Shown piece after piece: positions 29,227 to 33,327 of a DNA stretch of 41,122 nucleotides (position 1 is the first letter of the stretch; each line of letters opens with the position of its first letter). The notes under the pieces are model-generated. The model was not told the DNA's origin, ran no database searches, and saw nothing but the letters and a program-made list of their open reading frames with translations. The stretch comes from an uncultured Flavobacteriaceae bacterium (GTDB lineage: Bacteria > Bacteroidota > Bacteroidia > Flavobacteriales > Flavobacteriaceae). The stretch covers positions 1-41,122 of the forward strand of contig CASIAE010000001.1 of assembly GCA_949372605.1 (NCBI GenBank). Reading direction: 5' to 3'. A program made the position numbers and the translations under genes.

Positions 29227-30309
29227 TTATGAATTAATAATCTTCTCTTGTTGGTTAATTGATTCTTGGTGAACTGCCTTAAACACTCGTAAAATAAATT
29301 CTTCAGACAAATTACGTTCTTGTCCTTCTAAAATCATTTTACCCAAGATTTCATTCCAACGTTTGTTTTGCAAAACAGCAACGTTATTGTCTTTTTTAAT
29401 TGTACCAATTTCAACAGCCGTCTTCATACGTTTACCTAAAGTATCTAAAAGTGTTTGATCAATCACATCAATCTGTGCTCTTAAATTACTTAGCGCATTT
29501 TGATAAGCCTCCTGGTCGGTAGTAACCTTACGTACTTTTAAATCGTTCATGATTTCAACCAAACGTATTGGCGTCACTTGCTGTGCTGCATCACTCCATG
29601 CATTATCTGGATCCGTATGGGTTTCTATCATCAAACCGTCAAAGTTCAAATCTAAAGCCGCTTGAGAAATATCAAAAATCATATCTCTTTTCCCACCAAT
29701 ATGCGATGGATCACAAATCATAGGAAGATCTGGAAATTTATTTTTAACCTCAATCGCAATTTGCCATTCTGGAATATTACGGTATTTAGTTTTTTCATAG
29801 GTCGAAAATCCACGGTGGATCAAACCTAAATTCTTGATATTAGCCGTATGTAAACGTTCAACACCGCCTAGCCATAAAGCCAAATCAGGGTTTACTGGAT
29901 TTTTCACCAAAACAATTTTATCAGTTCCTTTCAAGGCATCAGCAATTTCTTGCATGATAAAAGGACTTACCGTTGAACGTGCTCCAATCCAAAGGATATC
30001 AACATCATTGTCTAAAGCTAACTTTACATGGTCTTTGTTAGCAACTTCAGTAGCGGTCAATAAACCGGTTTCTTCTTTAACTTTTTTCAACCAACCGAGT
30101 CCAATAGCTCCCACTCCTTCAAACATGCCCGGTCGGGTTCTTGGTTTCCATATTCCGGCACGATAAACCGTTACATCTGTATCTTTCAATTCATGAGCAA
30201 TTTTCAATACTTGCTCCTCTGTTTCAGCGCTACAGGGCCCTCCGATTACTAAAGGATGGTCTAAACCAAAATCAGTTAGCCATTGGCGCATTTCTTTTTT
30301 ATTTTCCAT
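29227..30309 (-). CDS. Bifunctional DAHP synthase / chorismate mutase
   Basis: Catalyses the first step of aromatic biosynthesis (PEP + erythrose-4-phosphate to DAHP) and, through its C-terminal AroQ-type domain, chorismate to prephenate. The ATG at 30309 gives 360 aa. DAHP synthase blocks: VIGGPCSAE, RAGIWKPRTRPG, WIGARST, KNPVNPDLALWLGG, CDPSHIGGKRD and IETHTDP. The mutase domain covers about residues 265-350 (LRAQIDVIDQTLLDTLGKRM). This fusion is known from Bacteroidota. It explains why the neighbouring pheA and tyrA lack mutase domains. Starts 4 nt after the tyrA stop; last of the four aromatic genes. Confidence 0.95.
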   Translation of the reverse strand: MENKKEMRQWLTDFGLDHPLVIGGPCSAETEEQVLKIAHELKDTDVTVYRAGIWKPRTRPGMFEGVGAIGLGWLKKVKEETGLLTATEVANKDHVKLALDNDVDILWIGARSTVSPFIMQEIADALKGTDKIVLVKNPVNPDLALWLGGVERLHTANIKNLGLIHRGFSTYEKTKYRNIPEWQIAIEVKNKFPDLPMICDPSHIGGKRDMIFDISQAALDLNFDGLMIETHTDPDNAWSDAAQQVTPIRLVEIMNDLKVRKVTTDQEAYQNALSNLRAQIDVIDQTLLDTLGKRMKTAVEIGTIKKDNNVAVLQNKRWNEILGKMILEGQERNLSEEFILRVFKAVHQESINQQEKIINS

Positions 30310-30313
30310 GGGT

Positions 30314-31183
30314 TTAATTATATTGTTTACTTGTTTTATTAATGCCTTCCAAAATTTCGCGAATACCATTGATCGCTTCTATCTGATGATAGAGTTTGCT
30401 ATATTCATTTGCTTCTAAAAGATTTTTAAATTGATTTAGATTATTAATGTATTCAGAAAGCGTTTCTAAAATATTATCTTTGTTTTGGTTAAAAATCGGA
30501 ATCCACATATCGGGCGAACTCTTTGCCAAACGGACTGTTGATTCGAATCCACTACCTGCCATTTCGAAAATAGTTTTTTCGTTTTTCTCTTTCTCCACCA
30601 CAGTTTTTCCTAACATAAAGGAACTGATGTGAGAAAGATGAGAAACATAAGCAATGTGTTGATCGTGTTCAGTCGGATCCATGGGTCTGATTTGCATTCC
30701 CATTTTGCGAAACCAATTTTCGGCCCATTCTAATAAATCCGGTCTAGTTTTGTGTGTTTCGCACAGAATTTGAGTTTTGTTTAAAAACAAATCCTCCATG
30801 GCTGCGTCCGGCCCTGAAAATTCGGTTCCTGCAATAGGGTGCGTCGCCAAGAATTGACCTCTTTTAGAGTGTAATGCCACTTGGTCACAAATGGATGCCT
30901 TGGTAGAGCCAAAATCAATAACAAGGCCATTGTCGTGAACCACATCCAAAAGACTTACAATTTCCTTACTGGCTGCATCAACAGGTATAGTAATCAGCAG
31001 TAGGTCCATTAGTTTTAGATCAACACTTTTAAGCTTAAAATCAATCAGCTTAATTGCTATGGAGCGATTGAGGTGGTCTTCGTTTTTATCCAAACCAAAA
31101 ATCTCAACATCAGGAATGTGCTTACGCGCCGCTAATGCCAATGACCCTCCAATCAATCCGATACCTAAAACACCTACTTTCAT
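30314..31183 (-). CDS. tyrA: Prephenate dehydrogenase TyrA
   Basis: Oxidative decarboxylation of prephenate to 4-hydroxyphenylpyruvate with NAD(P)+. A 289-aa monofunctional protein: Rossmann motif GIGLIGGS (7-14), LDKNEDH, the loop DFGSTKASI, THPIAGTEFSGP with the substrate-binding histidine, and the helical dimer domain with HDQHIAYVSHLSHIS. No chorismate mutase or ACT domain, so feedback must act elsewhere. It overlaps the upstream aminotransferase by 4 nt. Confidence 0.96.
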   Translation of the reverse strand: MKVGVLGIGLIGGSLALAARKHIPDVEIFGLDKNEDHLNRSIAIKLIDFKLKSVDLKLMDLLLITIPVDAASKEIVSLLDVVHDNGLVIDFGSTKASICDQVALHSKRGQFLATHPIAGTEFSGPDAAMEDLFLNKTQILCETHKTRPDLLEWAENWFRKMGMQIRPMDPTEHDQHIAYVSHLSHISSFMLGKTVVEKEKNEKTIFEMAGSGFESTVRLAKSSPDMWIPIFNQNKDNILETLSEYINNLNQFKNLLEANEYSKLYHQIEAINGIREILEGINKTSKQYN

Positions 31184-32328
31184 TTTTTTTCTATTCTTTT
31201 AATTGCTTTGCAAATTTGTGCTTCATCGACACAAAGTGAAAACCTAATGTATCCCTTTCCCTGACTTCCAAAAATGGTGCCTGGAGTGATGAATAAATCA
31301 TATTTATATAATATTTTATCTATAAACGCTTCTGCATCTAGCGTAGTATCTTTTAATTTTGCCCAAACAAACAAACCACTGCTGTTGGAGTCAAATTCGG
31401 ATCCTAACAATAAGGCCAATTCATAAATCAATTGACGCCTTTTTTCATAGACTTTATTCAATTCCGCAAACCAAGAGTCTGGTGCTTGAAGAGCTGCAAT
31501 TGCTCCCTTTTGAATGCCATAAAACATTCCAGAATCCATATTACTTTTAACTTTAAGAACTGCCTTAATATTTACTTCATTTCCCAAAAGCATTCCTACC
31601 CGCCAGCCTGCCATATTGAAAGATTTGCTTAGAGAATTGAGTTCCATTGCAACATCCATAGCTCCTGGAGTAGTTAAAATACTCTGTGGTATATCGGTTA
31701 AAATAAAACTGTAGGGATTATCATTAACCAATAAAATATTGTTTTTTCGAGCCCAATTGATCAACTCCTCAAAAATCGCTTGCTGGGCATTTGCCCCCGT
31801 GGGCATGTGGGGATAATTTACCCACAACAACTTAACGCCTTCCAAGTCCATTTTGTTCAGTTCTGCCAAATCGGGTTGCCAGTTGTTTTCAGATTTTAAA
31901 TCATAAAAGACAGGAATCGCCTCCACTAATCGGGTGACCGATTCGTATGTAGGATAACCCGGATTGGGAATAAGTACCTTATCTCCAGGATTGAGAAATG
32001 CCATGGACAGGTGAAGGATTCCTTCTTTAGACCCTGTTAACGGTAGTACCTCATTGTTGGGATCAACCAGAACTTGGTAATGATTTTGGTAAAAGTCTGC
32101 AATTCCTTTTCTAAGCTCTGGAAGCCCTTGATAGCTTTGGTATTGATGTGCTTTAGAATGAATCAAACTGGATGTTAGCGCATCGACCACAGAAGGCAGT
32201 GGAGCTAAATCTGGACTTCCAATCCCCATGTTAATTATATCTTTTCCCTCACGAACCAGACCCGCTACTTCTCTCAATTTTTTTGAGAAATAGTATTCCT
32301 GAACACTTTCTAGCCTTCTTGCTGTCAT
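31180..32328 (-). CDS. Class I aminotransferase of the Phe/Tyr operon
   Basis: A 382-aa PLP aminotransferase related to the LL-diaminopimelate/aspartate aminotransferase group. Visible: MGIGSPDLAPL, TGSKEGI, NPGYPTYES, an NYPHMPTG loop in place of NP(N)NPTG, DNPYSFI, and the PLP lysine in LNSLSKSFNMAGWRVG. Between prephenate dehydratase and dehydrogenase it most likely aminates phenylpyruvate and 4-hydroxyphenylpyruvate, or prephenate itself. This is inference from context. Four-nt overlaps with pheA upstream and tyrA downstream indicate translational coupling. Confidence 0.9.
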   Translation of the reverse strand: MTARRLESVQEYYFSKKLREVAGLVREGKDIINMGIGSPDLAPLPSVVDALTSSLIHSKAHQYQSYQGLPELRKGIADFYQNHYQVLVDPNNEVLPLTGSKEGILHLSMAFLNPGDKVLIPNPGYPTYESVTRLVEAIPVFYDLKSENNWQPDLAELNKMDLEGVKLLWVNYPHMPTGANAQQAIFEELINWARKNNILLVNDNPYSFILTDIPQSILTTPGAMDVAMELNSLSKSFNMAGWRVGMLLGNEVNIKAVLKVKSNMDSGMFYGIQKGAIAALQAPDSWFAELNKVYEKRRQLIYELALLLGSEFDSNSSGLFVWAKLKDTTLDAEAFIDKILYKYDLFITPGTIFGSQGKGYIRFSLCVDEAQICKAIKRIEKK

Positions 32329-33152
32329 GATTTACCATTTCTATACTCCCCCAAAACCTTGAATGAGATCGCCATTATTTCTAAAAGGGATTTTGCTTTT
32401 AAATAATCTTCCACTATATCGAAAGTAACATCCACAAAAAAGGCATATTTCCCGGGAGTTTCGATAACGGGTAAAGATTGAATTTTTGTAAGATTTAGGC
32501 AACAATCACTAACAACGTTTAGCGCCGTTGCCAAACTTCCACGCTTGTGATCTAAAATAAATTTCCAAGCCGCTTTTGAAATGGGTTCGGATGTTTTTGG
32601 ATCTGCTTTTTCGAGGATCACAAAACGTGTGACGTTATTTTTTATGGTTTGAATTGAAGCATTGAGAACAGTAAGTCCATAAATTTCTGCTGCACTTTTA
32701 CTTGCTATGGCACCAATGCCTTGTGTCTTATTTTTTTGGGTTTCCATCGCTACCTCAGCAGTGTCATTGCTTTCCACCAATTTAATATGAGGATAAGCCT
32801 CAAAAAAAGTCTTGCATTGAAGCAATGCCATCGGATGAGAATGCACTTCTTTAATATCTTCAATCTTTTGTCCGGGCAAAGCCATGAGGTTGTGCTCAAT
32901 GCTTAAATAATGCTCTCCCACGATGAATAGCCCGTATTGATCCATCAAAGCATAATTAGGAATGATCGAGCCAGCAATGGAGTTCTCTATCGCAATCACT
33001 GCCTGATCACAACTCCCCTGAGCCAAGGCTTTAGCTAAGGCATCAAAAGTGTTGCACTTCAGCAATTCAGGAGCAGCTCTGTAGTACTCCTGCGTCACCT
33101 GATCGTGAAAGGATCCTTTTATTCCCTGTATGGCTACTTTTGTTCTTTTCAT
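32325..33152 (-). CDS. pheA: Prephenate dehydratase PheA (monofunctional)
   Basis: Converts prephenate to phenylpyruvate, the Phe-specific step. The 275-aa protein has the catalytic domain (residues 1-185) with IAIENSIAGSI and the TRFVILE motif (175-181), followed by an ACT regulatory domain (about 195-275) including HKRGSLATALNVV and the ESRP-equivalent region at SLPVIETPGKYAFFVD, so Phe feedback inhibition is likely. First structural gene of the operon. Its ATG lies just 3 nt after the U-run of the leader terminator, so it has essentially no 5' UTR outside the attenuator. Confidence 0.96.
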   Translation of the reverse strand: MKRTKVAIQGIKGSFHDQVTQEYYRAAPELLKCNTFDALAKALAQGSCDQAVIAIENSIAGSIIPNYALMDQYGLFIVGEHYLSIEHNLMALPGQKIEDIKEVHSHPMALLQCKTFFEAYPHIKLVESNDTAEVAMETQKNKTQGIGAIASKSAAEIYGLTVLNASIQTIKNNVTRFVILEKADPKTSEPISKAAWKFILDHKRGSLATALNVVSDCCLNLTKIQSLPVIETPGKYAFFVDVTFDIVEDYLKAKSLLEIMAISFKVLGEYRNGKS

Positions 33153-33155
33153 TTC

Positions 33156-33184
33156 AAAAAAAAAGTCCCGATTAAATCAGGACT
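33156..33184 (-). terminator. Attenuator terminator hairpin before pheA
   Basis: On the minus strand AGTCCTGAT (33184-33176) pairs with ATCGGGACT (33172-33164) around a TTA loop: 9 bp with one G-U pair, followed by a run of nine T in total (33164-33156). This is a textbook intrinsic terminator, but it ends 3 nt before the pheA start codon rather than after a gene, so it must be conditional. Its 5' arm overlaps the antiterminator arm at 33180-33184. Confidence 0.85.
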
Positions 33185-33222
33185 CTTTGTTTTATCTATT
33201 TATTTCAAATACTACAAAGTCC
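33180..33222 (-). promoter_or_regulatory. Antiterminator hairpin of the phe leader
   Basis: GGACTTTGT (33222-33214), which is also the end of the leader ORF, pairs with ACAAAGAGTCC (33190-33180): 9 bp with a 2-nt bulge and a 23-nt loop. The second arm contains AGTCC, the base of the terminator 5' arm, so both hairpins cannot form together. A ribosome finishing the leader ORF would cover the first arm. A further small hairpin CTTCT-ATTC-AGAAG (33242-33229) lies within the leader ORF and could act as pause hairpin. Confidence 0.75.
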
Positions 33223-33280
33223 TTCCTGCTTCTGAATAGAAGAAATAAAAATTGTTAAAGCAAAAGAAATTATGATTCAT
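33212..33280 (-). CDS. Phe/Tyr-rich leader peptide of the pheA operon
   Basis: ATG at 33280, TAG at 33214-33212: 22 codons. Phe stands at positions 5, 6, 8, 11, 13 and 14, Tyr at 12 and 15, so 8 of 11 codons from 5 to 15 are aromatic. It begins about 17 nt after the -7 box and ends inside the antiterminator arm. These are the defining features of an attenuation leader peptide. The peptide itself needs no function: its translation speed reports charged tRNA-Phe (and probably tRNA-Tyr). Too short for normal gene callers. Confidence 0.85.
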   Translation of the reverse strand: MNHNFFCFNNFYFFYSEAGRTL

Positions 33281-33296
33281 TATTTATATATTGATA

Positions 33297-33327
33297 CAAA
33301 AGTAACACAGCTTTTCGCAAAAACAAA
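33297..33327 (-). promoter_or_regulatory. Promoter of the leader-pheA operon
   Basis: On the minus strand TTTG (33327-33324), a 19-nt spacer, then TACTTTTG (33304-33297). Both boxes and the spacing fit the Bacteroidota consensus TTTG/17-23/TAnnTTTG exactly. Transcription is expected to start around 33290, about 10 nt upstream of the leader ATG. Confidence 0.75.

Follow-up and report, generated by a model that had tools for sequence, protein, structure and literature searches.

The window, by which we mean the whole 41,122-nt stretch of DNA that was analyzed, contains four genes on its minus strand in the order pheA, aminotransferase, tyrA, and DAHP synthase fused to chorismate mutase (Table 1). 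Gene order was counted in loci L002 to L081 alone, which are the best 80 of 198 relatives; loci L211 to L262 were left out of these counts. An aminotransferase gene also followed pheA in all 80 loci, and tyrA was found within the 1.5-kb flank in 41 of them. In the window, the tyrA and DAHP synthase/chorismate mutase ORFs, both called from the first ATG, overlap by 56 nt (30314–30369); an internal Met may be the true start of the latter.

Table 1. Features of the pheA operon and its upstream region in the window
Feature	Position	Strand	Basis
Promoter match, Bacteroidetes type (TTTG 33327–33324, 19 nt, TACTTTTG 33304–33297)	33297–33327	−	sequence
Putative leader ORF of 22 codons (MNHNFFCFNNFYFFYSEAGRTL, then stop), 6 Phe and 2 Tyr, ATG at 33280	33212–33280	−	sequence, family conservation
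Aromatic codon cluster FFCFNNFYFFY, predicted stall site of a starved ribosome	33236–33268	−	sequence
Region 2, antiterminator 5' arm (GGACTTTGT 33222–33214, or CAGGA 33228–33224 with CTTTGT 33219–33214)	33214–33228	−	sequence
Region 3, antiterminator 3' arm; AGTCCTG common to the terminator 5' arm	33178–33190	−	sequence
Terminator hairpin (regions 3:4), 9 bp, loop TTA	33164–33184	−	sequence, folding
Nine consecutive T (U-tract); 3 nt separate it from the pheA ATG	33156–33164	−	sequence
pheA, prephenate dehydratase	32325–33152	−	Pfam PF00800, E 4e-56
Class I/II aminotransferase	31180–32328	−	Pfam PF00155
tyrA, prephenate dehydrogenase	30314–31183	−	Pfam PF02153, PF20463
DAHP synthase fused to chorismate mutase	29227–30369	−	Pfam PF00793, PF01817

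Between the upstream gene and pheA lie the parts expected of an attenuator. There is a short ORF with clustered codons for the amino acids that the operon produces; it lacks a Trp codon, and its conservation (see below) suggests that it is translated. Between this leader and pheA, the sequence predicts an intrinsic terminator, with arms AGTCCTGAT (33184–33176) and ATCGGGACT (33172–33164) that form one G-U pair among the 9 bp, and GAA separates its T-run from the pheA ATG (33152–33150). Pairing computations gave an antiterminator that excludes the terminator. A preliminary description of this DNA had placed the leader stop codon TAG at 33214–33212, had counted 9 bp in the terminator, and had read AGTCC as common to the antiterminator 3' arm and the foot of the terminator; the coordinates and the count were exact, and the sequence confirmed the overlap. 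It had also paired the end of the leader with ACAAAGAGTCC at 33190–33180. The complementarity between the leader end and the terminator 5' arm is present, but the most stable register is a slightly different one: the proposed pairing, which contains a 2-nt bulge, had an energy of −11.0 kcal/mol when enforced, whereas the 2:3 fold with the lowest energy for this segment, with CAGGA paired to TCCTG and CTTTGT to ACAAAG, reached −13.2 kcal/mol, and the terminator hairpin segment folded at −14.9. In both registers the leader end sequesters the terminator 5' arm. In L003, whose pheA is 92% identical, GAACT replaces GGACT; this change breaks a pair of the register proposed earlier and leaves the more stable register unbroken.

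The promoter match was made with the pattern TTTG-N17-23-TAnnTTTG, which we take to be the Bacteroidetes-type consensus, and would place the transcription start near 33291. In the 110 nt that precede the leader, the full pattern occurred in 12 of 124 genera, compared with 0.8 expected from shuffles, and TAnnTTTG alone occurred in 28 of 124, compared with 14.2 expected.

Taken alone, the window gave statistics that are only suggestive of an attenuator as opposed to chance. Folding of the 141-nt transcript had a z of −2.1, with 6 of 200 shuffles folding equally well, and region 2 bound its region 3 better than shuffles did at p 0.025. Because the case from the window alone was moderate, we examined its relatives.

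Conservation and covariation in the Flavobacteriaceae

In the named-relative set (the best 80 of 198 relatives, mostly Flavobacterium, with GTG and TTG leader starts allowed), all 80 loci had a leader in which Phe and Tyr together numbered 7 or more. A more even family sample consisted of 149 genomes, about one per genus. The upstream DNA was tested for all 130 of these that have pheA, i.e., the window and 129 other stretches, and a leader was scored as an ATG-started ORF of 10–45 codons, of which 6 or more encode Phe or Tyr. Such a leader was present in 124 of the 130 genomes; the controls gave 10 of 130 for the reverse strand and 542 of 3900 for shuffles (14%). A stricter rule (3 Phe, 2 Tyr, and a quarter of the codons aromatic) again gave 124 of 130, with the controls falling to 5 of 130 and 241 of 3900, respectively. 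A search for a hairpin followed by at least 5 T between leader and pheA was positive in 122 of the 124 leader-bearing genomes, with a median T-run of 8.

Six of the 130 genomes had no detected leader. In G048 the leader region is cut by the end of the contig, and the leader tail and hairpin are visible by eye; in G035, G013, G023, G080, and G128, no leader was seen upstream of pheA. One leader-bearing genome (G051) was unscored for the terminator, its start having been called inside the hairpin. Starts were called by script as the nearest in-frame ATG, or else GTG or TTG, and distances to them are rough for the genera flagged "alt" or "none" in this calling. Another (G067, locus L189) has kept the aromatic codons and region 2 (CAGGACTTTGT) with no terminator before the called pheA start, and its leader is perhaps a decaying attenuator.

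The 7-nt core of the terminator 5' arm formed at least 5 contiguous pairs with the leader end in 120 of 122 genera, at least 6 in 109, and all seven in 39. For an equal-width stretch upstream of the leader, the corresponding numbers were 41, 5, and 0 of 122, and for scrambled cores the frequencies were 43%, 12%, and 2.5%. The preliminary description had named, as a finding that would speak against the switch, homologous leaders that keep the terminator and lose this complementarity; only G122 and G123 approached that state, with the terminator kept and the complementarity weak. The core itself varies by genus (AGTCTCG, AGTCCCG, AGTCCTG, AATCCTG, AACCCGG, AGCCTTG, and others), and both of its partners change along with it. 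In the core-pairing and pair-type counts, which used sites picked for complementarity, position 4 (numbered from 0) was T:A in 66, C:G in 51, and T:G in 3 of 120 region 3:region 2 helices, and C:G in 51, T:A in 35, and T:G in 34 of 120 region 3:region 4 helices. At position 5, C:G, T:A, and even G:C pairs were present in both the 2:3 and the 3:4 helices. Thus the covariation that had been called for in relatives was found as compensatory changes in all three strands, which is the pattern predicted by mutually exclusive structures and is not predicted by a lone terminator.

The terminator has the T:G wobble at position 4 in 34 of the 120 genera, and the antiterminator partner is nearly always Watson-Crick there. 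It is as if the antiterminator had been tuned as the stronger partner, a reading of the sequences that the picking of sites for complementarity may inflate.

Because the sites had been picked for complementarity, the test was redone with the spacing to the last aromatic codon held fixed. The mean 2:3 energy was −10.3 kcal/mol for a genus's own pair, −7.6 for all foreign pairs, and −6.6 for foreign pairs with a different core, and none of 10000 permutations, which ignore relatedness, matched the mean of the own pairs. An energy of −6 kcal/mol was reached by 119 of 122 own pairs compared with 58% of foreign different-core pairs. Region 2 was better than its shuffles at the 0.05 level in 95 of 122 genera and at the 0.01 level in 67. 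For the median genus, 13% of the region 2s taken from other genera bound region 3 better than its own did. The first 2:3 duplex test, from which these counts come, gave poor scores to some genera in which region 2 lies beyond the stop codon, outside the tested stretch.

These results bear on the simplest alternative, that the hairpin simply terminates the upstream transcription unit and lies beside a chance ORF. A hairpin plus T-run is common between genes, and the modest statistics of the window alone agree with such an origin. However, the leader, the complementarity, and the spacing are conserved in the family well above the controls, and the promoter match is located between the upstream gene and the leader. 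We consider this explanation barely credible. Judged from the family tests, the attenuator architecture is beyond chance.

Ribosome position, putatively sensed amino acids, and the pheA start

In 113 of 120 genera, 9–14 nt separate the last aromatic codon from region 2, a gap approximately equal to what a ribosome covers in front of its A site. Folding was then modeled with a ribosome at successive codons, assuming a ribosome footprint and a transcript paused before region 4. In the window, the modeled probability of 2:3 pairing, P(2:3), was 0.82–0.94 when any of the Phe or Tyr codons occupied the A site, and it was 0.0 for positions from codon 17 through the stop codon. The mean over 120 genera was 0.97 at aromatic codons compared with 0.02 at the stop codon. 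With the assumed footprint, a stalled ribosome would therefore leave region 2 free and a ribosome at the stop codon would cover it. Without a ribosome, P(2:3) was 0.87 in the window, and the family median and mean were 0.87 and 0.68, in equilibrium folding that ignores the order of synthesis. Because the antiterminator is favored without a ribosome as well, the model leaves default termination in the absence of translation unexplained; it strongly backs the half of the switch with the ribosome at the stop codon and tells little about the untranslated state. A protector pairing between regions 1 and 2 was also apparent in the family (own −13.0 compared with cross −9.1 kcal/mol, matched in 0 of 5000 permutations). 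In the window this 1:2 pairing was weak (−7.6 kcal/mol), and 52% of the region 1s in the sample bound the window's region 2 better.

Considering the conserved leader, terminator, complementarity, and spacing together with the cross-genus swap tests and the ribosome-walk model, we conclude that the Phe/Tyr operon is very probably governed here by a ribosome-mediated transcription attenuator of the classical kind. The parts, their conservation, the compensatory changes, and the spacing make up the computed portion of that case and were demonstrated above. The predicted sequence of events is as follows. RNA polymerase would start near 33291, and a ribosome would translate the 22-codon leader. When charged tRNA for Phe or for Tyr runs short, the ribosome would stall in the aromatic cluster with its front edge just short of region 2; regions 2 and 3 would then pair, no terminator would form, and the operon would be transcribed. 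When both charged tRNAs are plentiful, the ribosome would reach the TAG and cover region 2, the 3:4 hairpin with its U-run would form, and transcription would end some 3 nt short of the pheA start codon. The switch between stalling and stopping agrees with what had been suggested earlier and gained from the conservation, the swap tests, and the ribosome walk; the suggestion that the stall codons are those for Phe needs amendment, since the codons are for Phe and Tyr.

Each of the 124 family leaders had 3 or more Phe codons and 2 or more Tyr codons, with a mean of 3.6 Tyr per leader. We read the leader as bivalent because the operon makes both Phe and Tyr. It could instead be controlled by Phe alone, as is pheL of Escherichia coli K-12, which has Phe codons and no Tyr. 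The Tyr codons would then be explained by the easy interchange of TTT and TAT and by their help in building the 1:2 pairing. Consistent with this, the Tyr codons of L021, L075, and L079 were seen by eye to lie within the arm that pairs with region 2, and one leader from outside the Flavobacteriaceae (L234) has Phe and no Tyr. However, the 2 or more Tyr codons were found in every family leader although the search rule demanded 6 Phe plus Tyr and not Tyr as such. The Tyr codons are also mixed into the last cluster (e.g., FYYFY, FYFFF, and FYFYFF), the products of the operon include Tyr as well as Phe, and in the model a stall at Tyr codons frees region 2 just as a stall at Phe codons does (0.97 each). 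Control by Phe alone thus seems unlikely to us. A Trp codon was present in 84 of the 124 leaders (one in 83 and two in 1); as a sensed signal it is suggestive only, and it may instead serve RNA pairing.

The preliminary description had further remarked that the terminator runs almost into the pheA ATG and could affect translation initiation. In an extreme form of this idea, the hairpin acts chiefly by masking the region around the pheA start, with the U-run being incidental. The position of the hairpin and U-run 3 nt short of the ATG in the window would suit such a switch, and the end of the T-run lies within 9 nt of the script-called start in 51 of 122 genera. The called start is more than 30 nt away in 31 of the 122, yet the T-run is present there too. 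Moreover, freeing region 4 raised the mean unpairedness of positions −20 to +12 only modestly: the window went from 0.28 to 0.41 and the 51 genera from 0.40 to 0.46, with an increase in 40 of them. We regard a chiefly translational switch as very improbable. The closeness of terminator and start stands as described, and the effect on initiation is modest in folding; gating of translation may be an addition to attenuation, one to which the modest computed unmasking lends little support. A terminator placed on the start site of a gene is a notable case in these organisms, which rely little on Shine-Dalgarno pairing.

Distribution of similar leaders and comparison with known systems

The order sample contained 60 genomes, of which 31 had a pheA match, and 29 further loci were inspected, 23 of them from other families. 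These loci and those of the phylum sample were judged by eye on leader and hairpin alone, and T-runs were weak in some. An aromatic leader with a hairpin was visible in 11 of the 23 other-family loci (families f2, f3, f8, f12, and f14) and was not seen by eye in another 11, which included f4, f11, and five f15 genomes; one locus was cut off. In f8 (L231 and L232) the putative switch is made of unrelated letters, GCGGTC and GACCGC, and the f12 leader has Phe and no Tyr. The five f15 genomes (L222 to L226), which belong to the same order and are about 0.6 Mb in size, have kept pheA with no aromatic leader seen, as expected if reduced genomes lose regulation. The phylum sample contained 80 genomes, 70 with pheA; 23 new loci were inspected, and 40 lower-ranking matches were left out. 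Among these, an aromatic leader and hairpin were visible in seven of the eight loci of the same class (L243 to L249). In the eighth (L240), pheA stands behind another gene and no such leader and hairpin were seen. Outside the class they were visible in L241 and L242 and were not seen in L250 to L262.

Leader-like ORFs were also seen before other operons. The trpE gene of the window's own genome (L272, G000:C5) is preceded by an ORF reading MEIKSWWNELF, with a Trp pair, and then by a hairpin and T-run. Similar ORFs with SWWNELF, WWW, and SWW precede trpE in three relatives (L270, L271, and L273); L271, from G020, has MNIKKEIKSWWNELF plus a hairpin. The trpE leaders of L270 and L272 matched no Rfam family at the gathering score. 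Leader-like ORFs before hisG contained HHH in L265 (G137) and HTH in L264 (G020), in each case followed by a hairpin and T-run, and no clear leader and terminator were found at ilvD in four genomes (L266 to L269). Judging from the trpE and hisG leader sequences, this lineage may make general use of attenuation.

Classical attenuation is best known from the gamma-proteobacteria. The comparative evidence suggests that in the Flavobacteriaceae the pheA operon is usually controlled in this way and that similar leaders occur in other families of the Bacteroidia. A broader proposal is that a single ancient aromatic attenuator of the class Bacteroidia reads Phe, Tyr, and Trp together and that, in cases such as the window in which the U-run adjoins the start codon, the hairpin also gates translation of transcripts that escape termination. 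We hold this proposal to be speculative and unlikely; if true, aromatic signals would feed one decision on an operon that, in the window, includes the first enzyme of the shared pathway. The family sample provides a natural series of more than 100 three-strand RNA switches with compensatory changes, and this series could show whether a single leader combines signals from two aromatic amino acids or from three.

Both a pheA element and indications of attenuation by leader peptides have already been described for this family. A 2021 study of Flavobacterium psychrophilum reported "strong clues" for attenuation by leader peptides in front of amino-acid operons, and it named a structured 5' element before pheA that is also present in other genera of the Flavobacteriaceae and had no Rfam hits (PMC9723704). 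In the part of that source available to us, the element is described without a leader peptide, alternative pairings, Phe/Tyr content, or spread outside the family. It was the sole paper on the Flavobacteriaceae pheA element within the literature searched, where the Phe plus Tyr content, three-way covariation, spacing, and spread were not found described. Leader-peptide-like ORFs are mentioned in general terms for Bacteroides thetaiotaomicron, in the portion seen (PMC7366714).

An Rfam scan of the whole window gave no match at the gathering score, T-box and riboswitch families included. At permissive E-values, the best match by bits was to the Phe_leader of E. coli pheL-pheA (RF01859); the 13 others look like chance. 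The window aligned to the whole of this model (1–125), in the correct register, with 25.1 bits (E 0.052), below the gathering score of 55 bits, while the E. coli control scored 132.3; none of 15 pheA relatives that were scanned reached the gathering score. Thus no Rfam family covers the window or these relatives. The Bacteroid-trp motif is located before trp genes and acts via a Trp leader. It is a cis-regulatory motif of Bacteroidetes, according to the part of its description consulted (RF01692; PMC2864571), and differs from the window in gene and codons; the window had no match to it.

The window resembles E. coli pheL-pheA in having a leader peptide with Phe codons and a terminator with a U-run before pheA. 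It differs in that pheL has Phe only whereas the window has Phe plus Tyr, in the distance from T-run to ATG (23 nt in E. coli K-12 and 3 nt in the window), in the distance from leader stop to ATG (98 and 59 nt, respectively), and in an operon that includes tyrA and DAHP synthase. A multivalent attenuator has a precedent in the ilvGMEDA operon of E. coli, in which a single leader responds to several of the end products of a common pathway; there the amino acids sensed are branched-chain, whereas those predicted for the window's leader are aromatic.
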